Source: a virus
IMG/VR virus record: IMGVR_UViG_3300025849_003059
Location: 19,473 to 83,472 of that record
Strand: one strand, 5' to 3'
Length of the DNA stretch: 64,000 bases
Shown here: piece after piece, positions 11,073 through 34,599 of the stretch
Layout: every line of letters starts with the position of its first letter
Numbering within the stretch: position 1 is the first letter of the stretch
Notes under the pieces: generated by a model
What the model saw: the letters and a program-made list of their open reading frames with translations, nothing else
Told to the model about the DNA's origin: nothing
Databases searched by the model: none
Made by a program: the position numbers and the translations under genes

Positions 11073-11192
11073 TTAATGATTTTTGTAAATAAAGGGGTCT
11101 CTTTTACGAAGCTCTTCTAGTTTCTTTTTATAAATCTTTTCTTTTCTTCGATTCTCAAAATATAATTTGATTTTTTTTATTATTCCGAACAT
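11073..11192 (-). CDS. Very small basic phage protein, 39 residues
   Basis: This short frame starts with ATG at 11192, overlapping the end of the upstream glycosyltransferase-like gene by 13 bases, and stops at 11073. The product begins MFGIIKKIKLYFENRRKEK and ends RDPFIYKNH. It is helical and strongly basic, and the combination of a basic helix with a DPFIYK-type ending recalls tiny proteins of marine myoviruses. The overlap and shared orientation make it the last gene of the modification operon, just before the box that starts the 1225-residue enzyme. Function unknown. Confidence 0.6.
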   Translation of the reverse strand: MFGIIKKIKLYFENRRKEKIYKKKLEELRKRDPFIYKNH

Positions 11193-12586
11193 AGTATTGA
11201 GTGATATTTGTTATTAAACTGATTTTTTATTATTTTTTGTAAATTTTCATAATATTCTTTTGATACATTTTTACATTTAAAAGTTTCTAAGTGATTTCTA
11301 TTATAAATAAGTATCGATTCTAATTTTTTTGTAAGAACATCCCATTCTTTTGTTGTTAAGTTCATCAAATTATCAATAACTTTAGTAATTTTAATAAATC
11401 TTTCATGAGGCTGGATTTCATCATCGTAACTTTCATCCCAAAACTCACCAAATGTTTTAAATCCATAAAACTTTAATAGTTTAAGAAAGTTAGCAGGTCC
11501 TACAACTACAAAAGGATGATAATTTATTATAGGTTTTCCAATTTTTTCAGTTAATCTTAAGTTATTAAAAAATGTAGATTCTGTTACAATACTAAAATAT
11601 GAATTTTCATACATTTTATAATCATCAAAATAAACTTTATCAAAATCAGTATCCATTTTATCTGCTATTCTTTTTTGTGTACTTAAAAATATTTCATACC
11701 CCTCACTTAGTGTTGATATTAAATTATCAATATTATCCTGGCCGTTATAAACCTTTAGATTTTTAATAAACTTGTACTCTCTGCCAAAATTGATATCATA
11801 TGATAAAAACATATTATCATATTTCTTTCCAAGTAAAAAAGATATAATGGCAATTCTATAATCTTTTAATCTCTTATTGAGACATACTACTTTATACTCT
11901 CTATTACGTTTAAAACCATTTACTATATTTTTTTGTTGAGTTAACTCCTCGATATTTTCAGAACTTAGTTGAAGTGCCCAAGGATACATAAAATATTTTA
12001 CATTTAATGGAAAATTATATTTTTTTTCAAATTTTTCTTTATATTCATCAAAAATTGCACTATCGGTTTGTATTATAATTTTTTCTAGTGGAATATCTCT
12101 TTCTTTACAATGGTGATATATCTGTTCTAATACAGTATATGTTAAACCTTCTTGTTGGTTTCTAAAATATAAAAAAAAGTTTGATTTTGTTTTAAGAGAA
12201 TCTACAACTATATCTGATAAATTTTCTATATATGATGTTTTTAAAGATAATTCTTTATATTGTTCATCAACTGGATTCATTCCATATTCAAAATTACCAG
12301 CAGTGTTTATTAAATATAAATAAGTTACCTCTGTTGATGTAATATAACCTTCAGTATTAAAATTTAAAGTTGATGTCATATCTACATCTTGCGTAGTAAA
12401 ATATAAATCCCAATTTGATGCATATGGAAGAAATCCACTATTCATCATATATTTTTGTCTATAAGAATGAATAGTATGACCTTTTAATTTTACATGATGC
12501 ATCATATCATCTATGATAAACTGCGGTAATGCGTTTGGAATCCTTATATCATCTATTATATTATCAAAAACAAGTCGAATATTCAT
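11180..12586 (-). CDS. Putative glycosyltransferase-like phage protein (FWDESYD family), copy 1
   Basis: The 468-residue product is a paralogue of the next gene upstream. Shared landmarks are a YKVVCLNKRLKDYR segment near residue 235, YENSYFSIVTEST near 325, TEKIGKPIINYHPFVVVG near 345, and GFKTFGEFWDESYDD near 375. The arrangement (Glu-Lys in the first strand-helix, then an HPF/VG segment and a conserved acidic end) resembles the C-terminal donor-binding half of GT-B glycosyltransferases. That is a structural guess, not an established assignment. It abuts the upstream gene with a one-base stop-start overlap and belongs to the operon that makes and transfers sugars. Confidence 0.6.
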   Translation of the reverse strand: MNIRLVFDNIIDDIRIPNALPQFIIDDMMHHVKLKGHTIHSYRQKYMMNSGFLPYASNWDLYFTTQDVDMTSTLNFNTEGYITSTEVTYLYLINTAGNFEYGMNPVDEQYKELSLKTSYIENLSDIVVDSLKTKSNFFLYFRNQQEGLTYTVLEQIYHHCKERDIPLEKIIIQTDSAIFDEYKEKFEKKYNFPLNVKYFMYPWALQLSSENIEELTQQKNIVNGFKRNREYKVVCLNKRLKDYRIAIISFLLGKKYDNMFLSYDINFGREYKFIKNLKVYNGQDNIDNLISTLSEGYEIFLSTQKRIADKMDTDFDKVYFDDYKMYENSYFSIVTESTFFNNLRLTEKIGKPIINYHPFVVVGPANFLKLLKFYGFKTFGEFWDESYDDEIQPHERFIKITKVIDNLMNLTTKEWDVLTKKLESILIYNRNHLETFKCKNVSKEYYENLQKIIKNQFNNKYHSILCSE

Positions 12587-14007
12587 TAGAATAATTTTAT
12601 ATAAGTTTGGTTATTATTATCAAGCAATTTTATTAAGTTTTCCTTAACAATTTGTTTAACAGAGTGTTCATCATATTTTAACAATAAATTTCTATTGTGT
12701 TTTAAAATTGGAAGCATTTCGTTATACATATCATTCCATTCATTTTTAGATTTATTTATTAAATTTTTACATAAATTAAATAATGCTATCATTCTATCAT
12801 TGGGTGATTCCATTTCATCATAACTTTCATCCCAAAAATCATTAAATGTTTTGAAACCATATGTTTTTAATTCCTTAAGTGTATATGGAGAACCTACCAA
12901 AACAAATGGATGATATTGCATTATTGGTTTTATGGTCTTTTCTGATATAAATCGTGTGTTATCTTGGAATTCTGTTTCAGTTACTATACTGAAATATGAA
13001 TTGGTGTATATATCTTTACTTTCCCAACCATACCCTTCAAGAGATTCAATATTATCATAATCAACAATTCTTTTTTGATTATTTAAAAGTTTTTTATATC
13101 CATCTTTTGCTTTTTGTTTATATTCTTCATTATAAAATATTCTTTGTCTTTTAAAATGATGGTCATCTAATTTATCAATAAAAAATGGAAATAGATTTAA
13201 ATTCATATCATATGAAGTGAAAGAATTTTCTAACAAATTTTCGTTTTCAAGTAATGATAAAAGTAAAATTCTATGAAATCGTAATCTTCTATTTAAACAT
13301 AAAAACTTTTTTGTTTTTGGTTTATTTAAATCACTCTCTACTACTATACTACTTTTTTTATATTTTTCATTTTTTATTTTATCATATAAAACAGTTTTTA
13401 ATTCAAAGTTTTTAAATGGAATAGCCCAATTGAATAAACAAATTTTAATTTTATCGGTTTGGGGAAATTGTTGTAAATATTCATCGTGTAATTCAGATAT
13501 ATTTAATGTACTTGTAATAAAAATTATACTGGTTGGATTTATTTTATGTTTTTTACATTCAAAATATATTTTATCTAAAATATTTCTATCATTATACCCT
13601 TCCATTTGATATTCTAAAACCAAATAAAAGTTTTTTGCATTTAAATACTCTAATGTAGTTGAAGATATATTAGAAAATACACTATTTTCATATTCTTTCA
13701 TACCAAGAGTAGCTAAAATATTTGAAAATGCAGTTATTGTATAGATGTATATTTCATCTGAATTACCTATTGTGTTTGTATCTTTATTATAGGTAATTTC
13801 ATTTATACAATATTCACCTTTAAATAGCCCTCTCAATAATCTTGGTTTATTTACTTGTATTGCACCATAAGTATCTTGATAATCTTGATAAAATTCTGAA
13901 GATTGTTCAAAATCATGTTTTACAAATAAATCATAATGATTTGGATTGTATCCATTTGGAATAGGTCCATGTGGTCCTATTATATCATATACATCATTAA
14001 TTTTCAT
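12586..14007 (-). CDS. Putative glycosyltransferase-like phage protein (FWDESYD family), copy 2
   Basis: The 473-residue product shares the block order of its downstream neighbour: KKFLCLNRRLRFHR near residue 220, TNSYFSIVTETEF near 330, SEKTIKPIMQYHPFVLVGSP near 350 and FKTFNDFWDESYDEMES near 390. It has no signal peptide or membrane segment, so it would act in the cytoplasm. The N-terminal third is less conserved between the copies and could define the acceptor. It overlaps the thiamine-enzyme gene upstream by eleven bases. A GT-B type glycosyltransferase is the most economical reading given its neighbours; catalysis is not demonstrated by any diagnostic residue I can see. Confidence 0.6.
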   Translation of the reverse strand: MKINDVYDIIGPHGPIPNGYNPNHYDLFVKHDFEQSSEFYQDYQDTYGAIQVNKPRLLRGLFKGEYCINEITYNKDTNTIGNSDEIYIYTITAFSNILATLGMKEYENSVFSNISSTTLEYLNAKNFYLVLEYQMEGYNDRNILDKIYFECKKHKINPTSIIFITSTLNISELHDEYLQQFPQTDKIKICLFNWAIPFKNFELKTVLYDKIKNEKYKKSSIVVESDLNKPKTKKFLCLNRRLRFHRILLLSLLENENLLENSFTSYDMNLNLFPFFIDKLDDHHFKRQRIFYNEEYKQKAKDGYKKLLNNQKRIVDYDNIESLEGYGWESKDIYTNSYFSIVTETEFQDNTRFISEKTIKPIMQYHPFVLVGSPYTLKELKTYGFKTFNDFWDESYDEMESPNDRMIALFNLCKNLINKSKNEWNDMYNEMLPILKHNRNLLLKYDEHSVKQIVKENLIKLLDNNNQTYIKLF

Positions 14008-14545
14008 AGTACAATTCAGGATATTCTACTATAATATGTATTCCACCCCAATCTAATGCACGTTGATATGCAGGTACTATTTTTTCTATCTTATCTAATT
14101 TTGTAATTGTACAGTTTGTAGTTATTTTTTCAAAGGCATCTGTATAATCTGCTTTGTGTTGATGGCCTGGGTCTAATGGTTTATCACTTCCCTTACCAAC
14201 TCTTACAATTACATTTGGTTTCCACTCACCATCAGACATTGCTTCTAATTTATCTAAATGGTTTACTAATTGATTACAAGCAAGAATTAAGAAATCCCAT
14301 CTTGGATAAAATGTAACAACTTGATGACCGGTCATTGCCAATCCCATTGTCATTCCCATTTGAGTTTCTTCCATTACTGGTGTTTCTATCATTCTTTCTT
14401 TTGGTAATCCCTCAATCGTTTTACTCATTGGGTTACCATAATAAACTATCTGTTGTCCGATGAATATTGTTTTATCATCTTCCATTGTAAGTTTCATTGC
14501 TTCAGTTAAAGCATCTAAATAAGGTGTGTATTCTGGTTGTGCCAT
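13997..14545 (-). CDS. Thiamine-diphosphate enzyme, pyrimidine-binding subunit (transketolase/E1-beta-like)
   Basis: The 182-residue product matches the pyrimidine-binding domain of transketolase and E1-beta enzymes: the catalytic-Glu region ETPVMEETQMGMTMGLAMTG (about residues 54-73), FYPRWDFLILACNQLVNH (about 78-95), and a C-terminal strand ending IIVEYPELYYEN. It stops where this domain ends. The usual C-terminal domain of E1-beta (total near 330 residues) is missing. Its partner is probably the alpha-like gene at 16450-17088, two genes upstream. Together they could carry out a ketol transfer or decarboxylation on a sugar or keto-acid precursor. The start at 14545 overlaps the upstream stop by one base. 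Confidence 0.8.
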   Translation of the reverse strand: MAQPEYTPYLDALTEAMKLTMEDDKTIFIGQQIVYYGNPMSKTIEGLPKERMIETPVMEETQMGMTMGLAMTGHQVVTFYPRWDFLILACNQLVNHLDKLEAMSDGEWKPNVIVRVGKGSDKPLDPGHQHKADYTDAFEKITTNCTITKLDKIEKIVPAYQRALDWGGIHIIVEYPELYYEN

Positions 14546-15537
14546 TATGGTTTTGAATTTGGGTCAAACTGGTCTTTGTTTTCTTTATACCATTTTAGTG
14601 CATCTTCCAATCCACTTCTTAAATCGTACTTTGGTTTCCAACCGAGTTTTAATAATTTTTCATTTGATAATAATCTTGTAGGAATCATCGGTGCTTTGTT
14701 GTTTACAAATTCGATTGGATTATCGTTACCTTCAATTTCTTTGATAAGATTAAGAACTTCCATTACTGTATGTCCTTTACCATAACAAACATTATAGATA
14801 TCGTATTTATCTACTTTCTCTGCAACTGTAATAAATCCACCTACCATATCATCTACATGAATAACATCTCTTACTTCAGTACCATCACCCCAAAGTGGGA
14901 TTGGATTTAATCCATCTGCTACTTTTCTGATATTTGCTGGTGTAACATGACACTTTTCGAAATCAAACTTATCATTCGGTCCAAACGAGTTGGAAGGTCT
15001 AATGATTACACATTGCATCGGGTCGTGAATCTGATTAGAGAAAAACTCACATAAAGTTTCTCCATATCTTTTCATCCAACCAACTGCCTTATACGCAGGA
15101 TATATGTTTGGTGTTTGTACATTCATATCTTCAGTACAATATTCTCCACCAATATCTGGATAAGTTGTATTAGAAGAAATAAACATAAACTTACGAACCT
15201 TGTTTCTCCAACTCTGTTCCATAAGATTTGTATTCATTTCAACATTAGGAGTTACATGGAGTAGTGGATTCACCTTGGTATCTAACGCATTAGACGTATT
15301 CGCAGCACAATGAAAGATAACATCTACACCTTTTGATACTAAATCACAAAAAGATGCTTCTCTCAAATCCCCATTGACATGTTCAACATTCTCATAACCA
15401 TCGAAATCTTGACGTAACTCCCTTGACCAACTTGTTGACCTTAGGTTAGTGTAACCATTTTCATATAACGATTTTAATAGTCTTGAACCTATGAACCCAC
15501 TTGCCCCAGTAACTAATATTTTATCTGTTTTTTTCAT
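14545..15537 (-). CDS. NAD-dependent NDP-sugar epimerase/dehydratase (extended SDR)
   Basis: The 330-residue product is a full-length extended short-chain dehydrogenase. The dinucleotide motif TGASGFIG is at about residues 10-17, and FISSNTTY carries the active-site Ser/Thr region near 120. YPAYK near 150 supplies the catalytic Tyr and Lys, followed by the RPSNSFGP and WGDGTEVRDVIHVDDM elements typical of UDP/dTDP/GDP-sugar epimerases and dehydratases. It would convert a nucleotide sugar in the cytoplasm for the operon's glycosyltransferases. The exact substrate cannot be told from sequence. It overlaps the next epimerase gene by 17 bases. Confidence 0.88.
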   Translation of the reverse strand: MKKTDKILVTGASGFIGSRLLKSLYENGYTNLRSTSWSRELRQDFDGYENVEHVNGDLREASFCDLVSKGVDVIFHCAANTSNALDTKVNPLLHVTPNVEMNTNLMEQSWRNKVRKFMFISSNTTYPDIGGEYCTEDMNVQTPNIYPAYKAVGWMKRYGETLCEFFSNQIHDPMQCVIIRPSNSFGPNDKFDFEKCHVTPANIRKVADGLNPIPLWGDGTEVRDVIHVDDMVGGFITVAEKVDKYDIYNVCYGKGHTVMEVLNLIKEIEGNDNPIEFVNNKAPMIPTRLLSNEKLLKLGWKPKYDLRSGLEDALKWYKENKDQFDPNSKP

Positions 15538-16465
15538 AATGTTTGTATGTTCTTTTTATTCCTTGTTCGAATCCTAGTTTTGGTAACAACTCATATTTTT
15601 CTTGAATTTTGGTTGACATTTTTCTTCTCATATCACCATTAGGTTTAGTTGTATCCCAATTAATTTTTATTTCCTTACCACTTGCTTTGGCAACAGTTTC
15701 AATCATTCTTTTTATTGATATTTCTTCACCACTACCTAAGTTAGTAGTTATGTGTAATTTATCTTCATAACATCTTATACATCCTTCTGCTACATCATCT
15801 GCATAAATGAAATCTCTTGTAGGTGTTCCATCTCCCCATGCCTCAATTTCATCAGTTGCCTCATAAATCTTTCTACAAGTTGCACCAATTACAGTTGCAC
15901 CTTCACCAAAGTTATCATATTCACCAAAAATATTTGCTGGTCTTACAATTGTCCACTTATCATATCCATGTTGTACTTTATATGCTTCTAAATACAACTC
16001 TGGTATTCTTTTACTCCAAGATGGAAACCAATCATTTGGTGATGGAAGTGTTTTCCAAACTGTATCTTCTATAAATTCTTCTGCTGGTTCATATACACCA
16101 ACTGAACTCATGAAAACCAACCAACAATTATGTTTATGACAATTTTCAATTATATTAATATTACCTTTAATAGATGGTTCTAAAAAATCTAATGGTTTTT
16201 CTTTTGCTCTGATTGGTGAACCTTTAATTCCAAATGCATTAATTACACCATCAAACTTATAATATTCAAAGAACACTTCTAATTCTTTTGAATTACGAAT
16301 ATCCATTCTTTCAAAATGAAATTCTGTTTCTGATGGTAAAAATTTAGAATAGTTTATATCAATTCCAATTACTCTATACCCTCGTCTTATTAAACCATGA
16401 GTTAGATATGTACCAACTAACCCACTACAACCTGTTACTAATATTGTTCCTAAAAAACTACCCAT
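15521..16465 (-). CDS. NDP-sugar epimerase/reductase-like protein with altered active site
   Basis: The 314-residue product is an extended SDR of the nucleotide-sugar family: TGCSGLVG near residue 11, FMSSVGVY near 115, RPANIFGEYDNFG near 175 and WGDGTPTRDFIYADD near 210. Where the family has Tyr-x-x-x-Lys, this protein reads PSWSK, so the catalytic tyrosine position holds proline while the lysine is kept. A nearby tyrosine may substitute, the enzyme may do a reaction that does not need the tyrosine, or it may be inactive. The start overlaps the alpha-like thiamine gene by 16 bases, with AGG six bases upstream of the ATG. Confidence 0.8.
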   Translation of the reverse strand: MGSFLGTILVTGCSGLVGTYLTHGLIRRGYRVIGIDINYSKFLPSETEFHFERMDIRNSKELEVFFEYYKFDGVINAFGIKGSPIRAKEKPLDFLEPSIKGNINIIENCHKHNCWLVFMSSVGVYEPAEEFIEDTVWKTLPSPNDWFPSWSKRIPELYLEAYKVQHGYDKWTIVRPANIFGEYDNFGEGATVIGATCRKIYEATDEIEAWGDGTPTRDFIYADDVAEGCIRCYEDKLHITTNLGSGEEISIKRMIETVAKASGKEIKINWDTTKPNGDMRRKMSTKIQEKYELLPKLGFEQGIKRTYKHYEKNR

Positions 16466-17088
16466 TTGCCTGTCCCATAATGTGGGAATTTTGATTCATA
16501 CTTATAATAGATTACATCTTTTGGTATTTCTCTTTGAATACCACCCCATGTATCTAATGTTGGGGTATTTGTACTTACACCATTATCTTCCACAACAAAG
16601 TGAAGTGGTAAATCATAGTTTCTCGCATATTTGTGAACTTCATAGAAGATTCCACTTTCAAATGCCATATCACCTAAAAAAACCCAAACCTTATTTGGAC
16701 TACCTTGAAGTTTTAAAGCCTTTGCTACACCAAGTGCTATTGGTAAAGTACCAGTTACAATTGCTGATGAATAAAATTTAGAATCTTTATCTACAATTGT
16801 GATAGATTTACCATCTAATATTTTTTGTTTTAATACTGAAGGTTCTACTCCATGTAAAAGTGCATGATAATGTGACCTCCAAGTTGAAAATACCCAATCT
16901 TCTATACCAATTTTATTAAATATTTTGATAAGTTCACTTTCATTACCATTTGATAAATGAATGGGTCCTTTGATTTCTCCATTTTCCCAATGTGAAATGA
17001 TATCGTTTTCAAAATCAATTAAATCTTGTTTTGACCAATTTCCATCAACCCATCTATCTTCGTGATAATCTAAATTTTTAATGTTCAT
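16450..17088 (-). CDS. Thiamine-diphosphate enzyme, cofactor-binding subunit (transketolase/E1-alpha-like)
   Basis: The 212-residue product resembles the diphosphate-binding subunit of 2-oxo-acid dehydrogenase E1-alpha and split transketolases. GTLPIALGVAKALK (about residues 107-120) matches the glycine-rich entry to the domain. GDMAFESGIFYEVHKYA followed by VVEDNGVSTNTPT (about 133-175) is the metal and thiamine-diphosphate motif, with Gly-Asp and the distal Asn kept. It is much shorter than a typical E1-alpha (about 360). It presumably pairs with the beta-like protein at 13997-14545, and the two are separated by two epimerase genes. A role in building a branched or acyl-modified sugar is inference from neighbours. 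Confidence 0.78.
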   Translation of the reverse strand: MNIKNLDYHEDRWVDGNWSKQDLIDFENDIISHWENGEIKGPIHLSNGNESELIKIFNKIGIEDWVFSTWRSHYHALLHGVEPSVLKQKILDGKSITIVDKDSKFYSSAIVTGTLPIALGVAKALKLQGSPNKVWVFLGDMAFESGIFYEVHKYARNYDLPLHFVVEDNGVSTNTPTLDTWGGIQREIPKDVIYYKYESKFPHYGTGKWVVF

Positions 17089-17662
17089 ATCTGTCTCGTT
17101 TTGATAAGATTGGTGATTGTACTGGCCAATCTATTTTAAATCGTTTATCGTTAAACACAATGGTTTTCTGTGCGGTTTCATCGTTGTACTCACCTTGGTA
17201 TGCCATTTTGTAAAAGAACATTGAATTATCTTCCATAACAAAATGTCCATTTGCAAACATTGGTGGTATAAGAACTTGTGTACCAGTTTCAGGTGAAAGT
17301 ACAAATGATTCCCATTTTCCATAAGTTGTTGAATGGGGTCTAACATCCAATACTACTAAGTAAATTTTACCATGAGGACAACTAACTAATTTCCAAGTTT
17401 TCTCATCATAGTGCATTCCTCTAAGAACTCCATACTTTGATTTTGAAAATCTATCGTGTTTAAATTGTAATCCTTTGTTTCTTTCATTTGCAGGTAATAA
17501 CCTATCATAATAATCTGAATGATATGTTGTAGATATTGAACCTCTGAACTCGTAATAAGTAGATGGTTGTACTACCTTCACTTCATTGAGCACTGAACCA
17601 TTGTAATAATGGAAATCATTCCAATCTCTTTCTTTATAAAATATACTTCTATTTAATGCCAT
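17078..17662 (-). CDS. dTDP-4-dehydrorhamnose 3,5-epimerase-like cupin
   Basis: The 194-residue product has an N-terminal extension (about 1-65), then the RmlC cupin core: KHDRFSKSKYGVLRGMHYD (about 68-86, with the catalytic His of RGMHYD), CPHGKIYLVVLDVRP, PETGTQVLIPPMFANGHFVM and FYKMAYQGEYN with candidate catalytic Tyr residues. The enzyme would epimerise C3/C5 of a 4-keto NDP-hexose or a related sugar. The extension and the variant YQGEYN loop suggest a non-standard substrate. It overlaps both neighbours by 11-14 bases and sits between an epimerase and the thiamine enzyme, consistent with one sugar pathway. Confidence 0.88.
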   Translation of the reverse strand: MALNRSIFYKERDWNDFHYYNGSVLNEVKVVQPSTYYEFRGSISTTYHSDYYDRLLPANERNKGLQFKHDRFSKSKYGVLRGMHYDEKTWKLVSCPHGKIYLVVLDVRPHSTTYGKWESFVLSPETGTQVLIPPMFANGHFVMEDNSMFFYKMAYQGEYNDETAQKTIVFNDKRFKIDWPVQSPILSKRDRYEH

Positions 17663-18614
17663 AACCTAGTGGAAAATCATTTCTATATTTAGAACTTAAA
17701 TCTGATATTAGAATTGTGTAAGTTTTTATTAACTCTTCTATACCCTTTTCTAATGTATATTGAGGTTTCCATGCATTAGATTCTAATTTTTGATTAGATA
17801 CTACATAATCTCTTTTATCAGGGTCCTCGTAATTATCGTTGTAGAAAATTTGAAAAGATGGTATCTGTTCTTGTATTGCTTCACACAATTGTTGTTTAGT
17901 AAGATTTGCTTCTGATAACCCTACATTGTACACTTCACCACTATGTAGATAATATTCTTCAATCATACTTCTAAATACCAAAGCAACATCTCTGATGTGA
18001 ATGAAGTTTCTTACAAATTTCTTTTCAAATAATACTATGGATTTATCTGTTAGGGCTTTGTAAACAAATTCGTTTACTAATAAATCCATTCTCATTCTTG
18101 GTGAAGTTCCAAAAACAGTAGCAAGACGTAAAGAGATTCCTCCTATCCCAAGAACCTCTTTTTCTGCCTCAACTTTGGTTTTTCCATAGTGGGAAATCGG
18201 GTTAAGTGGACTTTCTTCAGTACACACCCCATTCTCTCCTATCCCATATCCACTATTTGTGTTCGGATAAACCACCTTTTTATCATTTTCTTTTGCAATA
18301 TCACAAACAAACTTAACGTGCTCGTAATTTATTTGTGTTGCTAATTCTTTATCTCTTTCACAAGCAGGAAATCCTACGATTGCTGCAAGTGGAATAATTA
18401 CATCATTTTGTAATACTAATTCTTTTAGTAATTCTTTATCTCTTACATCACCATTAATGAATTTAAAAGTTTCATAGTGTGAAAAGTTTATAACAGATGT
18501 TTGATTATACATCATGTTATCTAATATTGTAACTTGTTTTGAATCTTGTAATAATACTTCTGTAATTACAGAACCTAAGTAACCTGCACCACCAGTAATT
18601 AGTATTTTTGTCAT
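17649..18614 (-). CDS. NDP-sugar epimerase/dehydratase (extended SDR)
   Basis: The 321-residue product carries TGGAGYLG (about residues 7-14), NTNSGYG around 115, a proper YGKTK catalytic pair near 143-147, LRLATVFGTSPRMR near 163 and RNFIHIRDVA near 202. These are standard landmarks of nucleotide-sugar 4-epimerases and 4,6-dehydratases. No membrane segment is present. It is one of three such enzymes in the operon and the only one immediately beside the RmlC-like epimerase. A joint path to a modified deoxyhexose is therefore likely but not provable. Its start overlaps the upstream radical-SAM stop by four bases (ATGA). Confidence 0.88.
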   Translation of the reverse strand: MTKILITGGAGYLGSVITEVLLQDSKQVTILDNMMYNQTSVINFSHYETFKFINGDVRDKELLKELVLQNDVIIPLAAIVGFPACERDKELATQINYEHVKFVCDIAKENDKKVVYPNTNSGYGIGENGVCTEESPLNPISHYGKTKVEAEKEVLGIGGISLRLATVFGTSPRMRMDLLVNEFVYKALTDKSIVLFEKKFVRNFIHIRDVALVFRSMIEEYYLHSGEVYNVGLSEANLTKQQLCEAIQEQIPSFQIFYNDNYEDPDKRDYVVSNQKLESNAWKPQYTLEKGIEELIKTYTILISDLSSKYRNDFPLGYGIK

Positions 18615-19813: not shown

Positions 19814-20145
19814 TATGATTCTATAATTTTAAAATTATCAAATATTTCAATATATTCTTTTAATTTTTTTGAAAGTATTTTATTTAAATCAATTCCATCT
19901 AAAATTGATTTTCTTTTATTTTTTACAACAATCAAAAATGTATTTGAATTATCATTTAACATTTGGGATGTTAGTCGATGTGTTAATGTTTTTTTATGGT
20001 TTGGATATTTTTCTTTGAATGATTTTTTATCAGTAATTGTATTTTTTAGTATATTTGATAAATTTTCTTTTTGATAATTAAATGGTACATATCCATTTGG
20101 TGTTAAAAAATCATACACAACGTAAAACTTTGTAAAATCTCTCAT
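19813..20145 (-). CDS. Small hypothetical protein, possible N-terminal fragment of the FWDESYD family
   Basis: The 110-residue product has no clear motif. Its start (YVVYDFLTPNGYVPFN) resembles the start of the putative glycosyltransferase at 12586-14007 (VYDIIGPHGPIPNGYNPN). It could be a shrunken relative, or a partner that shares a small N-terminal module. The rest is basic and helical. Stop-start overlaps on both sides (19813 and 20142-20145) place it firmly in the operon and argue that it is expressed. It does not look like a RiPP precursor: there is no glycine-rich or cysteine-rich core, nor a double-glycine leader. Confidence 0.45.
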   Translation of the reverse strand: MRDFTKFYVVYDFLTPNGYVPFNYQKENLSNILKNTITDKKSFKEKYPNHKKTLTHRLTSQMLNDNSNTFLIVVKNKRKSILDGIDLNKILSKKLKEYIEIFDNFKIIES

Positions 20146-21566: not shown

Positions 21567-21973
21567 ATTGAATCTGCAATTGCTTGTTTGAATTTTGTTG
21601 TACTCCATCCATGAGAACGGTCTATCCAATGAATAAGAGTACCAATTTCTTTTCCTGTGTAATCTTTATCTACATAATCATCTCCTAAGAATCTTACATC
21701 AGGATTTATACTTTTAATTAAAAATAAAAGTTCTTCTTCTGTATTATAGGTAAGTATTGTGTGATACCATGTAAACTGTTTTAACATTTCCCTTCTTTCA
21801 TCTACCGAAAGAATTGGTTTTTTCTTTTCAGGTCTTTCAATAGTTGGGTCATCATGTAATAGTATAAATAATTTTTCACAATTATTTTCTATTTCTTGAA
21901 ACATTTTTAGATAACCTGGATGTAAAACATCGAAGTTACCACAAATGATTCCTATTTCTGGTGTTTCTTTCAT
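21563..21973 (-). CDS. Cytidylyltransferase-like enzyme
   Basis: The 136-residue product is a compact nucleotidyltransferase of the glycerol-3-phosphate cytidylyltransferase/RfaE C-terminal type. It has GNFDVLHPGYLKMF (about residues 11-24), where the family HxGH reads HPGY, DERREMLKQF near 62, FLGDDYVDKDYTGKE near 97, and HGWSTTKFKQ at the end, corresponding to the RTxGISTT substrate motif. The change from His to Tyr in the signature could alter catalysis, although phosphotransfer may survive. It would activate a sugar- or polyol-phosphate as the CDP derivative. It overlaps the GT7 enzyme by four bases (ATGA) and the radical-SAM gene upstream by four. Confidence 0.8.
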   Translation of the reverse strand: MKETPEIGIICGNFDVLHPGYLKMFQEIENNCEKLFILLHDDPTIERPEKKKPILSVDERREMLKQFTWYHTILTYNTEEELLFLIKSINPDVRFLGDDYVDKDYTGKEIGTLIHWIDRSHGWSTTKFKQAIADSI

Positions 21974-27251: not shown

Positions 27252-28665
27252 TTAGTTTTTTACATTGATTAAAAAAGTCAACTAACTCTGGAAATGTTTC
27301 GTGGAAATTAGTTCCTCTACGTTTATCGTGTGCAGAAATAAAATTGTAAAAATCTCTACGAGTCCTCTTAAGTGTTTCTTCATCCACTTCTTCGTCAAAC
27401 CAATCAATAATTCTTTTTATTTTTCCAATTTCAATTTGAGTAAATCCTAAGTAATGGTCTTTCCAATCTTCAATTTCCCATAAAGGTTTAACCGTATGCA
27501 TTGTTTCTGCTTGAGTTACAAACTCTTCTAATCTTTCTTTAAACTCTCTTGGTAGTATTTTAACAGTTTGATGGTGTGGGTATCTTAAATACGCAGAATC
27601 TAATGTTAGGGCAGTTACCCAATATCTATCTGGTGAGTTGTGTAGTGTTTTCATTTCAAAAACCCACTCTAAAAGTTCACCATAACGTAAAATTGATAGT
27701 GCGTTGAAGGTTGACATTATAGCTATTGATAATTTTGTTGTTTTTGAAAGAAGTTCATCAACTCTTTTTTGCCAAATAGGGAAATCTAATCCATTTCGTG
27801 CATATTCTGCTTGTTCTCCAAAAGTATCTACTGATGTAAATACTGTAAGTTCTTTTATTCTTCCACTTTCTTCTAATTCAATCATTTTTGCTAAGAACTT
27901 ATCGTATATTTTATCAGGTATACCTAAGTTTGTGTTTATAGAAAGTTTTAAATTAGTGTTTGGATTATCTGTTGTAAGAATGTGTTCTACTACCCTCCAA
28001 AAATCAGGTGACATTGTTGGTTCACCACCCGTTATTCTAAAAGTATCCATATCTTTATACAAATCTGGCCACCACTCCCAAAATGCATCTACATATGGGT
28101 TTGCTTCAGAATGTTTATATGGCATTTTACCATTTTCTTGTAACCATTCTAAGTTTCCAAAGTTATCTGATGTTGGGTATGCACCATGTTGTTTTATTTC
28201 CTCTACCCACTTTGATGAATATTGAGGACCACAATAAGAACACTTAAAATTACAAGCATTTGAGAAGGCAACTTCAACATATTTTGGATTGTAGTTTTCT
28301 CTCCAACCCAATTCTTTGATTTTATCAAAATGTGGTTTAGACCAAGGTTCAAATGATTTATAGTGTCTATCAGAAAACTCAGGTCCACTATCTTCAACCT
28401 TCCAACAATAATCACACTCTGGTGGTCTTTCGTTGTTAAGCATCATTTTTCTTTGCTTCTTCTTGTGTCTTGTGTTGTGAAGTGCGGTTGGGTTTCTTTT
28501 TAATTCTCTTAATGGAATTTTATGTGGAATGGGGTGATGACACGAGTGTGTTTCACCTGTTTGAAGATGTATTGTAACTTGAGTCCATTTTGCTAAACAA
28601 AATCCACAACCAACATCATCTAGTTGTTCTCTAAAATCATATAACTGTCCTCTATGGTCTATCAT
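27232..28665 (-). CDS. Radical-SAM protein, CHHP subgroup, copy 3
   Basis: The 477-residue product is the first transcribed of the radical-SAM run. It has FCLAKWTQVTIHLQTG (Cys23, with another Cys20), SCHHPIPHKIPLRELKRN (Cys42), ALHNTRHKKKQRKMMLNN, CDYC (84-87), the radical-SAM motif CNFKCSYC (138-145), and RITGGEPTMSPDFW near 220. The ATG at 28665 forms an ATGA overlap with the stop of the GT7-LamG gene upstream, tying radical chemistry to glycosyl transfer at the level of translation. No transmembrane segment is present. What it modifies is unknown. Confidence 0.88.
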   Translation of the reverse strand: MIDHRGQLYDFREQLDDVGCGFCLAKWTQVTIHLQTGETHSCHHPIPHKIPLRELKRNPTALHNTRHKKKQRKMMLNNERPPECDYCWKVEDSGPEFSDRHYKSFEPWSKPHFDKIKELGWRENYNPKYVEVAFSNACNFKCSYCGPQYSSKWVEEIKQHGAYPTSDNFGNLEWLQENGKMPYKHSEANPYVDAFWEWWPDLYKDMDTFRITGGEPTMSPDFWRVVEHILTTDNPNTNLKLSINTNLGIPDKIYDKFLAKMIELEESGRIKELTVFTSVDTFGEQAEYARNGLDFPIWQKRVDELLSKTTKLSIAIMSTFNALSILRYGELLEWVFEMKTLHNSPDRYWVTALTLDSAYLRYPHHQTVKILPREFKERLEEFVTQAETMHTVKPLWEIEDWKDHYLGFTQIEIGKIKRIIDWFDEEVDEETLKRTRRDFYNFISAHDKRRGTNFHETFPELVDFFNQCKKLNEEFLQ

Positions 28666-30110
28666 AAACTGATTTTTATCATATTAACTAGTTTCTTTTT
28701 TGATACTTTTTTTTCTTTAAATCTTAGAGTATTTAAACCTTCAATTTTATAATTATCAAAATCTTCTCTAACTTCATTATAAAATCTAATTTGATTTTTT
28801 CTAGTATCAGAATGTATCCACTTATTTCCAATAGATGAATTTGATTTATGTTTTAAAGATTTAAATCTACTTTCTCTTCTATGTGGTTTTGGTAGATATG
28901 ATTTAAAAGATTCTATACCCTTGTATAAATATGTATTGTATAATTTTATGTTATTCTGCTGAGCTATATCAATACATTCTTCTTTTTTAGAAAATTCTGG
29001 TAATATCTGACATAATAAAAATTCTGATGATATGAAGTTATCAAAATTTCTTATTTTGGGTGTTGTTGGATTTTCGTATATTGATTTAACTTCGTTTGAA
29101 TCTAATCCAACATCATATATTTCAACTACACCAACTTTTCCAATTAAAAATTCTTTGTTTGTTTTTTTACTATTAGGTGCACCTACAAATATCTCATCAG
29201 TTGATAATTGTAAAATTTCAGTATCCATTTCTATTTTTTCAATCAATTCACCATTGACGTAAAATGAAATAAATTTATTATCTTCATATGTCATTGTTAG
29301 ATGTGTCCATGCTTCACCCATTATATCAGAAGATATTGAATATGCTTTTTTATTCAAATCATAAGTCTGACAAAAGTATCTACGAAAGGAATTGTAAAAT
29401 AATCCAATGTTGTAGCCTGGTATAGATAATATTGGGAATTCATCATAATCTTTATTTTTACTTAATTTTATTTCTTCTGGTTTTACTAAAACTGAAATAG
29501 TGAAATCATCTTCCAATAAAATAGAATCTTTTGTTGAAATTTTTATATAACTTCTATCACCATCTAATTTGAATGAATGAATTTCACTTACATTGGAATT
29601 ACCAAACACTTCTTTGTCAATATCCAATCCTGCTTGAATACATCTTATCAATAAATCATCATCTTCGAATCCCCATCCCCAATATTCATTGGAGAATCCA
29701 TTGATAGTTTTAAAATCTTCTTTGGTAAACATTGTTACTCCACCAAAGTAATCAAAGAATGTTGTTTCGTAATCGTGTTCTTGTAAATGAGTTGCTAAAT
29801 GTAAAGGTTTATCTGAATATGAGTAATCTACATCTTCTGGTAACATATCAACATCATGAAATACAAAATAATCACACCCTTTATCAACGGCATACTTATA
29901 TCCTGCATTCAGAAGTTTACCTCTATTAAAAGGTTTATCATCTGTCTGTTCAACGATGAAGATTTCATAATCAATATCCTTAATATAATCTTTCATATGA
30001 GATAAGAACCTTTTCAGTTGTTGTTCTCTATCTCTATATGGAACTATTATACCAAGTTTATGAGTTATCTTCTTCTCCTTGAGTCTCTTTGTTCTCTTGG
30101 ATTCTCTCAC
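28662..30110 (-). CDS. GT7-type glycosyltransferase with inserted LamG-like domain
   Basis: As for the 20142-21566 enzyme, the GT7 fold is split by a jelly-roll module. Counting from a GTG at 30110, VPYRDRE is at 23-29, the metal motif HDVDM at 85-89, YFGGVTMFTKEDF near 121 and an intact WGWGFEDDD at 144-152. The LamG-like part spans about 175-350 (LDGDRSYIKIS, WTHLTMTYEDNKFISFYVNGE, IGKVGVVEIYDVGL), and GT7-like KIEGLNTLRF returns near the end. The start is uncertain: GTG at 30110 has a ribosome site only two bases away and overlaps its neighbour by 53 bases. AAGGAG lies six bases before an ATA codon at residue 15, next to the conserved fold. Confidence 0.82.
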   Translation of the reverse strand: MRESKRTKRLKEKKITHKLGIIVPYRDREQQLKRFLSHMKDYIKDIDYEIFIVEQTDDKPFNRGKLLNAGYKYAVDKGCDYFVFHDVDMLPEDVDYSYSDKPLHLATHLQEHDYETTFFDYFGGVTMFTKEDFKTINGFSNEYWGWGFEDDDLLIRCIQAGLDIDKEVFGNSNVSEIHSFKLDGDRSYIKISTKDSILLEDDFTISVLVKPEEIKLSKNKDYDEFPILSIPGYNIGLFYNSFRRYFCQTYDLNKKAYSISSDIMGEAWTHLTMTYEDNKFISFYVNGELIEKIEMDTEILQLSTDEIFVGAPNSKKTNKEFLIGKVGVVEIYDVGLDSNEVKSIYENPTTPKIRNFDNFISSEFLLCQILPEFSKKEECIDIAQQNNIKLYNTYLYKGIESFKSYLPKPHRRESRFKSLKHKSNSSIGNKWIHSDTRKNQIRFYNEVREDFDNYKIEGLNTLRFKEKKVSKKKLVNMIKISL

Positions 30111-30333
30111 TTCCTCTTTCGGGTCTGTTTATACTTCCTTTTGTTCTTGTTTTGAAAATTTGAAAAAATTCATTCAAATACCACTCTAATCTTTCAGACC
30201 ATTCTACTAGTCCAACATCCTCGTTGTAATCATTTCGTTCTTCGAGGGCATCTGCGATTCTTCCAAAAGCCTTAGCCATCTTTTCATAGGCCTCAACTTT
30301 TCTTTCTTCAAAGTTATTATCTTTATCTGCCAT
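30058..30333 (-). CDS. Small helical phage protein, 91 residues
   Basis: The product is acidic and helical at the N-terminus (ERKVEAYEKMAKAFGRIADALEE), then carries an aromatic segment WSERLEWYLNEFFQIF (about residues 45-60). The end is hydrophilic and disordered. It is the kind of small helical protein often found between phage accessory genes. The ATG at 30333 lies four bases after the stop of the upstream GT7 gene, and its tail overlaps the next GT7 gene by 53 bases or fewer depending on that start. It could be a partner or chaperone of the flanking transferases; nothing in the sequence proves it. Confidence 0.55.
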   Translation of the reverse strand: MADKDNNFEERKVEAYEKMAKAFGRIADALEERNDYNEDVGLVEWSERLEWYLNEFFQIFKTRTKGSINRPERGSERIQENKETQGEEDNS

Positions 30334-30337
30334 AATA

Positions 30338-31795
30338 TTAAGTTATTATTCTTACTAATTTATATTCACTTCTATCTTGGATATCCATTATTTTATATTT
30401 TAATGTAGATAATCCAATTTTTTTATAATCAAGTTCATCTGTTAACACTTCGTTAAAGAAAATATCAGCATTCTCTTCAATATCAGGGTCATATTCATAA
30501 TATTTTTCAATAATATTTTCATCATCATCGTGTACTAATGACTTGTACTTACCATCCAATCTAACTGGTATGGAAATTTCATCTGTTAGGTATATTTCTT
30601 CATTTGATAAATTAAAATTACTACCTTCAATATTTAAATGATTGTAATTCTTACCTGAATCTAATACCACCCTATTTTTATATAACTTATCAAAGTTAAA
30701 AAAGTTACTCAATACAATACCATATTTATTTTTTAATAAATCAAGGTTAGATTTTCCATTATAATATAGGTCAGATACGATATCATCATTTATTTTACTA
30801 GAAATACAAAAGATATCTGCTAGTTTAATTTCAGAATTTGTATCTGATATTTTAATTGAATGATTTTTATAATCGTATAATTTAAAATCTTTTGGTAAGT
30901 TACCACTAACTTTAATATTATTAAGATATAATGATATTTTATCATCATCAAAAGAAAAAACTGCATGATTCCATGTGTTTTTATAATAAGTTTGACTTAT
31001 CTCTTGGTGTTTTTCTTTTGTATCCCATATTTGACCTATTAAGTATTTACCATCTGATAAAAATAGACCAGAATCACATCCTTCAAACGCAAATAAGTTT
31101 TTAGGATAATCACCTCCATTATCTTTAAACCATAATGATATTGTAAACTGTTTTTCTATATCGTTTTGGGTTAATTTATTTATAACACCATAGAATCTAG
31201 TATCTTTTTCGATTTCAACTAAATTTAGTGTTTGTTTTTTTGGATTATTGCTCAAATCAACATCTTCAATTCTATATGGTAGGATATCATCATTATTATA
31301 TTTTGAATATGTTTTGTTTAAATCATAATATACTTCAAGATATGCATCACTTTTTTCTAATCTATATAATAAATCTAAATCACTAAAACCATAACCATAG
31401 TATTCTGGTGAGTAACCATTTGAATTTTCAAAATCTTCTCTATTAATTAACAAAACACCACCCATATATTGAGGATAGGGTAGTTCACCATTATGAGCCT
31501 CAACATCATTTGCTAAATGAGTTGGTTCATCAACATAAGAATAATCACATTCATCTGTCATTGGTAACATATCAATATCGTGGAAACAAAAATAGTTATA
31601 TTCTGCATCTATTTCCTTAACAACAGCATTACATAGTTTTCCATAATTAAATGGTCTATCATCTGCTTGTTCAGCTATAAAAATATCATAATCAATTCCT
31701 TTACCATCTAAGAATTCATGCATATGAGGAACAAATGTATTTAAATGTTCTTCTCTATCTCTATATGGAACGATTATTGCTAATTTATCACTCAT
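30338..31795 (-). CDS. GT7-like protein with LamG-like insertion and degenerate acidic motif
   Basis: The 485-residue product shares the GT7-LamG architecture: VPYRDREEHL (10-19), metal motif HDIDM (72-76) and YMGGVLLINREDFENSNGYS. At the position of WGWGxEDDD it reads YGYGFSDLD (133-141), so two of the acidic residues, including the glutamate, are replaced. The LamG-like region spans about 180-345 (FTISLWFKDNGG, WNHAVFSFDDDKISLYLNN), and IGLSTLKYKIMDI closes the GT7 fold. It may have changed donor or acceptor, or serve as a non-catalytic binding partner for the two intact paralogues. It overlaps the upstream gene by four bases (ATGA). Confidence 0.75.
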   Translation of the reverse strand: MSDKLAIIVPYRDREEHLNTFVPHMHEFLDGKGIDYDIFIAEQADDRPFNYGKLCNAVVKEIDAEYNYFCFHDIDMLPMTDECDYSYVDEPTHLANDVEAHNGELPYPQYMGGVLLINREDFENSNGYSPEYYGYGFSDLDLLYRLEKSDAYLEVYYDLNKTYSKYNNDDILPYRIEDVDLSNNPKKQTLNLVEIEKDTRFYGVINKLTQNDIEKQFTISLWFKDNGGDYPKNLFAFEGCDSGLFLSDGKYLIGQIWDTKEKHQEISQTYYKNTWNHAVFSFDDDKISLYLNNIKVSGNLPKDFKLYDYKNHSIKISDTNSEIKLADIFCISSKINDDIVSDLYYNGKSNLDLLKNKYGIVLSNFFNFDKLYKNRVVLDSGKNYNHLNIEGSNFNLSNEEIYLTDEISIPVRLDGKYKSLVHDDDENIIEKYYEYDPDIEENADIFFNEVLTDELDYKKIGLSTLKYKIMDIQDRSEYKLVRIIT

Positions 31796-32670
31796 ATTCT
31801 AATAACCTTTTTTGTTATCGTATCCCAATGTTTATAAGATGAATGTAAATTATCTTCTGAATCTTGTATGTAAAATTCTTTATCAGATATATCAATCTTA
31901 TAATCATTTAATTGTATTGCTCTATACATTTTTTTATATTCTTTCCAAAATGTATAATCTTCTTTTGTATTCGATACTTCTTTTAACCTATCCAACACAG
32001 TAGAATCCCATTTGAAGTGATGAACTTGTACAAACCCACTACCATCTTCTAAAATATTTTTTTTGTTTATGTGTCCAATTGGGTATCGTTGTGGATGAAA
32101 TATACTTCCATATCCCCAAGTATTTTTACCATCTCCTAAATCAACATAGTGTTGTCCTGCGGTAACATTAACTGAACCTTTCATTACACAAACCTTATTT
32201 GGACATGCACCACTCAATGGATTTCTAAAAAATCCAACATTAGGGAACTCTTTCCATATATCACTATCTTTCGATATATTTGGGAATTCCCCATTCACAC
32301 CTATTCTATCCAAAAATCCACCAGTAATAAATGTCCAACCATTTTCTTCACATCGTTGAATCATTGTTCGTAATGGAATTGGATATATGTGAAACTCATC
32401 GTCGTCCGAAACCACCCACCATTCATTTGGTTTTGTTTGTTTTACTTTGTTGTATAATTCAGTTACCTTCTCCCAATGAAATTTAGGTTCTGTAACAACC
32501 ATATAAGGTTCTACACCACACTTCTTTACTTCTTCAAGTATTCCATCATCTTCACTCTGTCTGTACACTACAACGAAGATTTCATCTACTATCGATTCGT
32601 AGTGTTTTATCATATGGGGAAGCAAAGTAGTATTGTGTCCTACTATCGTAACCAAATTTATTTTTTGCAT
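31792..32670 (-). CDS. GT-A type glycosyltransferase-like protein
   Basis: The 292-residue product resembles family 2/92-like glycosyltransferases. It has an N-terminal strand-helix start (NLVTIVGHNTTLLPHMIKHY), EIFVVVYRQSEDDG, and WWVVSDDDEFHIYP near residues 88-101, which holds the DxD-type metal motif. A histidine-rich acceptor region (SIFHPQRYPIGHIN, QVHHFKWDSTVLDRL) follows, as in enzymes that have HxxWK-like signatures. No membrane helix is present. It overlaps the methyltransferase gene upstream by 13 bases. The donor is presumably one of the nucleotide sugars made by the downstream genes. Confidence 0.75.
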   Translation of the reverse strand: MQKINLVTIVGHNTTLLPHMIKHYESIVDEIFVVVYRQSEDDGILEEVKKCGVEPYMVVTEPKFHWEKVTELYNKVKQTKPNEWWVVSDDDEFHIYPIPLRTMIQRCEENGWTFITGGFLDRIGVNGEFPNISKDSDIWKEFPNVGFFRNPLSGACPNKVCVMKGSVNVTAGQHYVDLGDGKNTWGYGSIFHPQRYPIGHINKKNILEDGSGFVQVHHFKWDSTVLDRLKEVSNTKEDYTFWKEYKKMYRAIQLNDYKIDISDKEFYIQDSEDNLHSSYKHWDTITKKVIRI

Positions 32671-33440
32671 TTTTGTATGAATGTTAAACCGGTAGAAGAT
32701 GGTTTAGATTTAAATATACCATTGTTAAAAAAGTTAAAAACCTCCCAATCTTTATCTTCTTTTAATTCTTTAATTAATTTTGAAGGTCCTTCTGCAAATT
32801 CATCGTGATGATTTTGGTCTGTGATATCTTTTGTTATAATATATTCTTTTTCGAATGAATCATCAGTATCGTGTATTGATATTATTCCATGAGGTGAGAG
32901 TAATTTGGAATATAATTCAAAATCAAGTTTTACATCCTCGTATGTATGACCGGCATCTATATGAAGGTAGTCAATTTTTATATCTTCTTTTACAAAAAAG
33001 TTATAATAAGCATTTTCAGTAGTTTCATTTATAATTCTTGGAAAAAACTTTTTTCTTAGATAGGAATTTTCTTCTAACCAATCTACATTACCTCCAACTC
33101 CATTTGCGGCATCTACTAAAAAAGTAACACCGATATCTCCCCAATTATAATCTCTATTTCCTTCGAAGATTCCGGCATCATATAAATCAATTCTTGATTG
33201 TGTCATGATTCGTGGAATGAATCCACCACCACTCCCTAAACATACACATACTTTTGCACGAAGATAATGAATAACACTATACACCAACAAACCATCTCCC
33301 ATACTAAATTCAGTAGCACCATGTGTCCATCTATATGCTAGTGGAGAATGTTCAGTATATTCACGACCATCTTCAGCTTTCTTAGTATATAAGTTATTGG
33401 TTATAAAATCTTTTATATAATTTAAATTAAGAATATTCAT
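32658..33440 (-). CDS. SAM-dependent methyltransferase, cephalosporin-hydroxylase/Methyltransf_24-like
   Basis: The 260-residue product has a class I methyltransferase core: CVCLGSGGGFIPRIM (about residues 80-94) as the SAM-binding glycine loop, an acidic IDLYD after it, and YLHIDAGHTYEDVKLDFELY (about 160-180). LLSPHGIISIHDTDD follows, typical of the Methyltransf_24 group that acts on sugars and small molecules. It is first behind the TATATTTATATA box at 33482-33493, about 40 bases before the start, so it opens the long modification operon. O-methylation of a transferred sugar is the likeliest role, by context. Confidence 0.8.
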   Translation of the reverse strand: MNILNLNYIKDFITNNLYTKKAEDGREYTEHSPLAYRWTHGATEFSMGDGLLVYSVIHYLRAKVCVCLGSGGGFIPRIMTQSRIDLYDAGIFEGNRDYNWGDIGVTFLVDAANGVGGNVDWLEENSYLRKKFFPRIINETTENAYYNFFVKEDIKIDYLHIDAGHTYEDVKLDFELYSKLLSPHGIISIHDTDDSFEKEYIITKDITDQNHHDEFAEGPSKLIKELKEDKDWEVFNFFNNGIFKSKPSSTGLTFIQKCKK

Positions 33441-33481
33441 TTAGTGTTTATAGTTATAAAGCTTAACCCCCTACCCCCTTG

Positions 33482-33493
33482 TATATAAATATA
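33482..33493 (-). promoter_or_regulatory. Late-type promoter box TATATTTATATA opening the modification operon
   Basis: Exact copy about 40 bases before the methyltransferase start. No further copy is found in the next 22 kb, so this box and the one at 34615 may serve the entire run of coupled genes. Confidence 0.65.
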
Positions 33494-33519
33494 TAAAAAT
33501 ATATAAAACGTAAAATAAA

Positions 33520-34599
33520 TTACCAAAAAGAAAGTATTTGAGTTCGGACATTATCTGCCCATTCTTTTTTATTATCGAATCGTTTCATGAATCCTATTAA
33601 TTTATCTCTTTCAATTGAACGTTCTTGGTGAGAATCTCGTAAGATTTGTTTGATACATTTATCAAATTCGTTTTTAGTAGATGCTCTATATTTGTAATCT
33701 AATTCGGGTGCCCAATCTTTATTAATTATTGGTAATTTTCCATAATCAACCGCCTCAAAGATACTATATCCAAATGGTTCTCTAAAAGATGCTCCATGAA
33801 AAATACCCCAATTTTTTGTGAAAAAAGCATTCTTTATTTTTGGGTCCCATTGGTAAATATCTACTGAAGGCATTTGATATCGTGTGGTATCTCTTAAATT
33901 TTTTACATCAAACTGACCGGTCAATGCATATCCTTTATCTATACCATGCATCCAATGTAAACACTTTCTAGTTTCAGCTCTAGCAGCATAACCAACTGTT
34001 CCATTATTAACGTTTGGAGTTAATGAAGCAGGACCTCTGAATTCATAATAGTTTGGTAAATAATAAGTATAGTTTGGAAAATCTGATAATAATTGAGAAC
34101 TATTTAAACCTATCCAAATTCTTCTTTTACAAGTTAATAAAAATTCACTATACCACTTTTCATCAACTTTTGTTTGAAATTGTAATCTATCTAATTCTGG
34201 TAGATATTTCCATATCTCTTTCATATCTTTTGGATATGCATGTACGAAACAAATACCAAATATATCTTCAAACTTCCATAAATGTTCTCTCATGTGATAA
34301 TGAGGATGTAAGAAATGAACCCAATTTGATTCTCTACCCCATTGTTCAGTAATAGATGGGTCATCATAGTGAAAGTGAAATCTTAGACCAGGTGGAAGTG
34401 ATTCTTCTTTAAAATTACTAGGTCTTTTTGAATCAATTAACAATCTATATCTTCTTTTATTTGGTAGTTTTGTCCATACTTCCTTTAAAAAATTATTTAC
34501 CCAAATATCTGCTCCACCTTGAACTGTATTTCCTGCACCAGTACAAACTAAAAGAATCCAAGGTGTTGATTTTGATGATTTTTTAACAACTTCTGACAT
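33520..34599 (-). CDS. GT-B (family 4-like) glycosyltransferase
   Basis: The 359-residue product has the GT-B layout: an N-terminal acceptor half with WILLVCTGAGNTVQGGADIW (a glycine-rich loop) and HFLHPHYHMREHLW, a linker, and a donor half with VGYAARAETRKCLHWMHG. The family signature FREPFGYSIFEAVDYGKLPI is near residues 280-300, where two glutamates bracket the donor phosphates. No membrane anchor is seen. It has its own TATATTTATATA box (34615-34626) 15 bases before the ATG and lies just downstream of the host-recognition protein gene. That makes it a link between the virion module and the modification operon. Confidence 0.82.
   Translation of the reverse strand: MSEVVKKSSKSTPWILLVCTGAGNTVQGGADIWVNNFLKEVWTKLPNKRRYRLLIDSKRPSNFKEESLPPGLRFHFHYDDPSITEQWGRESNWVHFLHPHYHMREHLWKFEDIFGICFVHAYPKDMKEIWKYLPELDRLQFQTKVDEKWYSEFLLTCKRRIWIGLNSSQLLSDFPNYTYYLPNYYEFRGPASLTPNVNNGTVGYAARAETRKCLHWMHGIDKGYALTGQFDVKNLRDTTRYQMPSVDIYQWDPKIKNAFFTKNWGIFHGASFREPFGYSIFEAVDYGKLPIINKDWAPELDYKYRASTKNEFDKCIKQILRDSHQERSIERDKLIGFMKRFDNKKEWADNVRTQILSFW

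Follow-up and report, generated by a model that had tools for sequence, protein, structure and literature searches.

What does a T4-like phage make with an operon that combines six radical-SAM proteins, three GT7 glycosyltransferases and a set of sugar enzymes, and where would the product be placed? The operon lies in a window of 64,000 nucleotides (the whole stretch of DNA analysed, genes g01-g46), which corresponds to bases 19473-83472 of the 83,472-base IMG/VR virus record IMGVR_UViG_3300025849_003059. The record is classed as linear and therefore represents a genome fragment of about 83 kb. A T4-type portal (g04, PF07230) and a terminase (g06) are present, and the phage is T4-like; among 50,697 phage records, the closest portals are those of Microcystis phage Mel-JY01 (51%) and, next, of Flavobacterium phage immuto (45%).

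Layout of the operon

The operon consists of 23 minus-strand ORFs (g10-g32, 11180-34599), most of them joined by short overlaps (Table 1). The original prediction had described about 24 same-strand genes with overlaps of 1-67 bases. The overlapping minus-strand run stands, while the 67-base overlap is spurious and comes from the TTG start given to g20; the conserved ATG at 21566, where the GT7 homology of the protein begins, leaves an overlap of 4 bases. Most of the predicted gene content was borne out as well: the six radical-SAM proteins, the three GT7-LamG proteins, the methyltransferase g31, the RmlC-like g16 and the split thiamine halves g15/g12 have their family matches, and the claimed cytidylyltransferase was confirmed as a nucleotidyltransferase, g21. 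Other assignments held in part. The GT-A enzyme g30 is a sub-threshold Pfam match and the GT-B enzyme g32 has no family hit, and the three supposed epimerases are the SDR proteins g13, g14 and g17, the last of which resembles a C4-dehydrogenase more than an epimerase. No obvious membrane segment was seen in any cluster protein. The order and content of the operon were found again in independent contigs, so that it is neither a chance arrangement nor a chimera.

Table 1. Genes of the operon, its promoter stretch and the adjoining fibre-like genes (positions in the window)
Feature	Position	Strand	Basis or remark
Intergenic stretch with late-type box ATATTTATA	33441..33519	-	Precedes g31, the first gene of the g31-g10 operon
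g32, putative GT-B-like, own ATATTTATA box upstream	33520..34599	-	No family hit; conserved beside fibre genes
g31, methyltransferase	32658..33440	-	PF13578; in 63/65 GT7 loci
g30, GT2-like (GT-A)	31792..32670	-	PF13704, E 2.6e-5, sub-threshold; in 63/65 GT7 loci
g29, GT7 with inserted LamG, degenerate YGYGFSDLDL motif	30338..31795	-	Pfam and motifs
g28, small protein	30058..30333	-	No Pfam hit
g27, GT7 with inserted LamG	28662..30110	-	HDVDM and WGWGFEDDDL intact
g26, N_Twi_rSAM, CHHP subtype	27232..28665	-	Relatives directly after GT7-LamG
g25, N_Twi_rSAM	25881..27251	-	NCBIfam score and motifs
g24, N_Twi_rSAM	24529..25899	-	NCBIfam score and motifs
g23, N_Twi_rSAM, CC subtype	23232..24536	-	g25-g24-g23 order also in unrelated phages
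g22, N_Twi_rSAM	21970..23232	-	NCBIfam score and motifs
g21, nucleotidyltransferase, nearest RfaE domain II/TagD type	21563..21973	-	Family profiles
g20, GT7, LamG inside catalytic domain (about residues 152-397)	20142..21566	-	Pfam and AlphaFold model
g19, small protein	19813..20145	-	No Pfam hit
g18, N_Twi_rSAM	18611..19813	-	NCBIfam score and motifs
g17, nucleotide-sugar C4-dehydrogenase-like SDR	17649..18614	-	54.6% identity to PDB 6vo6
g16, C3/C5-epimerase-like (RmlC-like)	17078..17662	-	45% identity to C. jejuni GDP-heptose epimerase 8dco
g15, E1-alpha-like TPP-binding half	16450..17088	-	GD...DNG motif
g14, GDP-fucose-synthase/C4-reductase-like SDR	15521..16465	-	Without YxxxK pair
g13, GDP-fucose-synthase/C4-reductase-like SDR	14545..15537	-	Family match
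g12, E1-beta-like half, without C-terminal domain	13997..14545	-	Family match
g11, diversified GT-B-like family	12586..14007	-	Model pLDDT 91.6; weak Foldseek matches
g10, paralogue of g11 (31% identical)	11180..12586	-	Sequence identity
g33, fibre-like, Ser/Thr-rich (30.5%), candidate acceptor	34643..38083	-	Composition
g34, fibre-like, 2573 aa, 22.5% Ser/Thr, candidate acceptor	38086..45807	-	Composition, conserved place

A late-type box and a conserved place beside the fibre genes

The ATATTTATA box is present in 14 coding-strand copies, 10 of which fall in the 15 upstream intergenic regions, those of g31 and g32 among them; resampled intergenic sequence gave a mean of 0.48 and a maximum of 4. 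The same box precedes virion genes such as g44 and g45, as had been predicted. The exact T4 late box TATAAATA was also tried and showed no enrichment on the coding strand, the enriched form being its reverse, ATATTTATA. In five large relatives, a conserved run leads from the baseplate and fibre genes into g32-g31-g30, with the order g45-g44-g43-g42-(g41,g40)-g38-g35-fibre genes-g32-g31-g30 recovered whole or in large part. The claim that the operon follows the fibre genes extends to the relatives. Box placement and upstream gene order together indicate that the operon occupies a conserved fibre-side place and, by its sequence, looks like a late operon. The fibre-like proteins g33 and g34 are rich in serine and threonine (Table 1) compared with roughly 8-14% in the cluster proteins.

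Several neighbouring genes have features of their own. The C-terminal end of g34 carries a motif like that of the S74 intramolecular chaperone peptidase. The product of g41 (53792-54364) looks like a sulfotransferase, with an HIPKTGGTS motif, and g46 (63170-63736) has a Hint/intein-like start (CLVGNTQTEMSDGSFKSI) and an end near THN; a 35% relative of g46 adjoins g32 in another contig (G013, L311:16326-16787). In g09 (7351-11028; 1225 aa), conserved beside the cluster, cytidylyltransferase-like and HD domains are joined.

Three modules of different spread

The operon is made up of three modules that differ in their spread among relatives: a sugar cassette (g12-g17), a transfer unit (the methyltransferase g31, the GT-A enzyme g30, the GT7-LamG proteins and one radical-SAM protein) and a radical-SAM array (g25-g24-g23). 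A survey anchored on g15 yielded 54 loci with enough flanking sequence, where g16 was present in all 54, g13 and g14 in 53, and g12 and g17 in 51. These loci also held a g10/g11-type protein in every case, an N_Twi_rSAM protein in 46, GT7-LamG in 36 and g21 in 10. When loci were taken from the side of GT7-LamG, a radical-SAM gene lay directly downstream in 74 of 78, a second GT7-LamG accompanied the first in 64 of 65, and g30 and g31 were found in 63 of 65; the sugar cassette lay within 5.5 kb in only 37 of 70. Across 34 contigs, all 20 with GT7 also carried N_Twi_rSAM, nine had radical-SAM alone and five had neither. Five portal-anchored contigs whose portals are 71-73% identical (G005-G009) carry neither radical-SAM nor GT7, which indicates that the module is clade-limited. 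Tight units exist, and the complete set is a local combination. The check raised by the original prediction, whether the whole set co-occurs, therefore had a mixed outcome. The six-gene radical-SAM version occurs only in this record and its closest relatives, G010 and G033.

The sugar cassette

The best match of g17 is PDB entry 6vo6, which we take to be Cj1427 (E 4.6e-104; next match 7e-19). For g16, the E value was 5.5e-48 with the C. jejuni GDP-heptose 3,5-epimerase and 1.1e-23 with the best-scoring dTDP-rhamnose enzyme that lies outside the Campylobacter group; g16 keeps the equivalents of His67, Lys74, Asn121, Tyr134 and Asp173, with Tyr132 replaced by Phe. By these far better matches, g17 and g16 belong with the Campylobacter GDP-heptose C4-dehydrogenase and C3/C5-epimerase and not with the rhamnose enzymes. 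Both g13 and g14 group with GDP-fucose synthases, a family to which the C. jejuni C4-reductases also belong. The SDR pair YxxxK is missing from g14, where many relatives have W-[FYH]-P-[SAG]-W-[ST]-K. In C. jejuni, the route on GDP-heptose runs from the C4-dehydrogenase through the epimerase to the C4-reductase (PMC10680097). The phage has homologues of all three steps of this capsule heptose pathway (Cj1427-Cj1430-Cj1428), but the GDP-heptose-forming genes were not found in its record and a split thiamine enzyme is added.

This enzyme comprises the TPP half (g15) and the pyrimidine half (g12, 182 aa) of an E1-type enzyme, which by their sequences form a minimal two-subunit unit. With a limit of E 1e-20, relatives of g15 turned up in none of 396 genomes from the phylum of a Flavobacterium MAG and in one of 399 from that of Nitratireductor. 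In that one genome, at the only bacterial locus (L306) to tie the pair to heptose genes, the two TPP halves are flanked by an HddA-like kinase on one side and by RfbH-like, HddC-like, GmhA and g17-like genes on the other. Keto sugars are known to receive C2 branches from E1-type pairs (PMC12247030). The yersiniose enzyme YerE and the alpha-keto-acid-dehydrogenase-type branching pairs (PMC12247030, PMC4753412) resemble the phage cassette in that a thiamine enzyme stands beside 4-keto-sugar genes, and the latter share the E1-alpha/beta-like two-subunit form with g15/g12; they differ from it in that the phage g12 has no C-terminal domain and its reaction is a predicted one. From the L306 neighbourhood and the branching by E1-type pairs and YerE, a C4-branched product can reasonably be inferred.

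The module would thus likely make a 4-keto-derived sugar, perhaps a C4-branched one. Starting from a host-supplied GDP-sugar of the heptose or the mannose type, the cassette would produce a 4-keto sugar by oxidation, which would then be epimerised; g15/g12 would attach a branch of two carbons at C4, in the manner of YerE and the alpha-keto-acid-dehydrogenase-type pairs, and a reductase would finish the branched sugar. The earlier description of the pathway as complete-looking did not survive: GmhA (PF13580) and HddC-type (PF00483) families are absent from the record, itself a fragment, and from nearly all relatives. The host would therefore have to supply the precursor, and the starting sugar is a guess.

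GT7 enzymes with an inserted LamG domain

Pfam recognises GT7N, GT7C and LamG in g20, g27 and g29. The DxD and EDDD motifs of GT7 are intact in g20 and g27, and g29 has SDLD in place of EDDD. In the AlphaFold model of g20 (pLDDT 89.8), there is a B4GALT1 match at about 1.3 A over the first ~150 residues, followed by a middle part that resembles pentraxin/LamG folds. The profile match of intact g20 ends near residue 155-169, whereas removal of the middle gives one continuous B4GALT1 match over spliced residues 2-216 (E 3.6e-35). This difference shows LamG to be an insert within the GT7 catalytic domain, just after the EDDD motif. B4GALT1 has the same fold, the DxD and WGWGxEDDD motifs and the C-terminal DGLNSL segment, but in the phage protein a LamG of ~245 residues separates EDDD from the metal-binding His region. 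No matching domain arrangement was found among solved or viral model structures, where the top viral matches of g20 appear to cover one part or the other, and no g20 relative was found among the 50,697 phage records. A free-standing LamG gene related to the g20 insert follows the radical-SAM gene in relatives. A LamG family common to the GT7-LamG proteins and the structural protein g45 was considered and found no support, the LamG profile having matched only g20, g27 and g29 in the window and, in relatives, free-standing LamG ORFs. Within g45 (1725 aa) there is a weak LamG match (59479-59874).

The g10/g11 family is very diverse. Its model is confident (Table 1), and its best folds are GT-B at a TM of about 0.38, a weak match that makes the GT-B assignment tentative. 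These proteins, together with the GT7-LamG proteins, g30 and g32, would transfer the sugars; the inserted LamG would probably present or select the acceptor, and g31 would methylate.

The radical-SAM genes

All six radical-SAM proteins exceed the NF033640 (N_Twi_rSAM) cut-off, with 283-401 bits against 170, and keep CX3CX2C, GGEP and the four N-terminal cluster cysteines. N_Twi_rSAM is a family with an N-terminal twitch domain. At 21-42% identity to each other, the six genes are, judging from their divergence, old paralogues. The g25-g24-g23 array recurs at 44-54% identity in phages without GT7, and the two of these whose entire contig was tested have no g15 either. The same order was seen in the unrelated phages L084, L088, L089 and L092, near structural-type genes in L088, and in the first three the array has beside it a conserved ORF of 326-328 aa that carries an IDADN motif; the ORFs around it mostly gave no Pfam hit, and one was a further radical-SAM protein. 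Other contigs hold larger sets: G016 and G018 (L175, L180) have 15-16 N_Twi_rSAM matches and a g15 cassette and no GT7, and G028 (518 kb) has 21 matches. In the phage collection, g26 gave only two distant Vibrio phage matches (22% identity).

A common bacterial partner of N_Twi_rSAM was sought, and the neighbours proved heterogeneous and not diagnostic: ketosynthases and an SDR in Paenibacillus, proline racemases in Nitratireductor, and a macrolide-type glycosyltransferase with a methyltransferase in Hahella. A PDB search with the radical-SAM (A1) profile returned weak matches only, the best being SkfB, and indicated no reaction. The radical-SAM enzymes would probably tailor the sugar or its acceptor.

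Comparison with described systems

The closest described system is the host recognition cluster of pelagimyophages, an island between VrlC and gp14 in which tail fibre genes occur together with several glycosyltransferases, with rfaE and with radical-SAM cassettes (PMC7029224). In both cases the phages are T4-like and marine and the island lies in the structural region; the combination of fibres, glycosyltransferases and radical-SAM cassettes that marks such a cluster is found here. GT8 is the best represented glycosyltransferase family there, in contrast to GT7 with an inserted LamG here, and the consulted parts of that report mention no heptose-type cassette or thiamine pair (PMC7029224); the core described here is order-conserved. 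The T4-like environmental genome TARA_ERS488813_N000010, reported in 2017, likewise carries many radical-SAM genes (12), which the consulted sections of its description treat as Fe-S metabolism only, with no operon or glycan link (PMC5332604). In view of these two reports, it was too strong to say that such a combination is found in no described system. The sugar cluster of cyanophage S-SM2 has a TPP protein (40% to g15, 30% to g12), a nucleotidyltransferase (27% to g21) and epimerases. It differs in that the TPP halves are fused in one gene and a phosphoheptose isomerase and a kinase are annotated, and S-SM2 is not among the phage records with a g20 or g26 relative. What is new here is the order-conserved GT7-LamG/radical-SAM unit, the insertion of LamG into GT7 and the joining of a heptose-type cassette to a split thiamine enzyme.

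The probable target of the module

The operon very probably makes an uncommon sugar and transfers it to some acceptor, and is best explained as a late-expressed glycan module in the fibre region of a large T4-like marine phage. Its likeliest target, to which we would give an even chance, is the phage's own Ser/Thr-rich fibre proteins, which would be produced at the same time. The virion is favoured by the presence of soluble proteins only, the late-type promoter, the fibre-side place and the Ser/Thr-rich fibres. Ser/Thr richness is usual in fibres, and lipid-linked glycans of the host are likewise within the reach of soluble glycosyltransferases. A more detailed version, in which a C4-branched heptose-derived sugar would be placed on the tail fibres through an acceptor-choosing LamG and the radical-SAM enzymes would rework the attached glycan, is rather doubtful. 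Of the decoration originally proposed for the virion or the infected cell, the sugar pathway, transferases, late-type boxes and fibre-side place stand, with the choice of surface divided between the fibres and the host.

A host target is possible, although the chances are against it: the enzymes may remodel a surface glycan (O-antigen or capsule), excluding rival phages or freeing progeny from decoy receptors. In favour of this are the likeness of the module to capsule and LPS pathways of bacteria, the great diversity of the g10/g11 family, and the view of the pelagimyophage authors, who prefer this explanation for a similar cluster (PMC7029224). It fits less well with the box common to virion genes and the conserved position at the fibre genes, and among the cluster proteins, which have no obvious membrane segments, no flippase, polymerase or polyprenyl-phosphate transferase was recognised. 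It is unlikely that the radical-SAM proteins are peptide maturases, with the sugar genes serving a modified glycosylated peptide or an altered protein backbone. The N_Twi_rSAM proteins resemble several SPASM peptide maturases below the cut-off, SkfB is the best PDB match of the A1 profile and small ORFs (g19, g28) exist; yet no precursor-like peptide was recognised, these ORFs being without matches and without Cys, and one radical-SAM copy usually goes with GT7-LamG rather than with a small ORF. It is quite improbable that the acquired genes form a loose island and yield no joint product: the modules do differ in spread and the six-radical-SAM set is rare, but order is strongly conserved at 45-95% identity, motifs are intact and the genes overlap translationally. 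To our knowledge, GT7 enzymes are not known as DNA transferases. Hypermodification of phage DNA with sugars against restriction, a frequent role of phage glycosyltransferases according to the consulted parts of PMC12619734, is the most improbable reading, given the location with late virion genes and that no base-modifying enzyme was recognised among the cluster genes.

Significance

The GT7-LamG/radical-SAM unit is present in many uncultured phage contigs, yet a search of about 50,700 phage records found no GT7-LamG. The analysis predicts GDP-4-keto sugars as the substrate class of a phage thiamine enzyme and suggests what the N_Twi radical-SAM proteins that recur in marine phages may do. Should the virion prove to be the target, the module would open a biochemical route to studying how these phages change their receptor binding or evade recognition.
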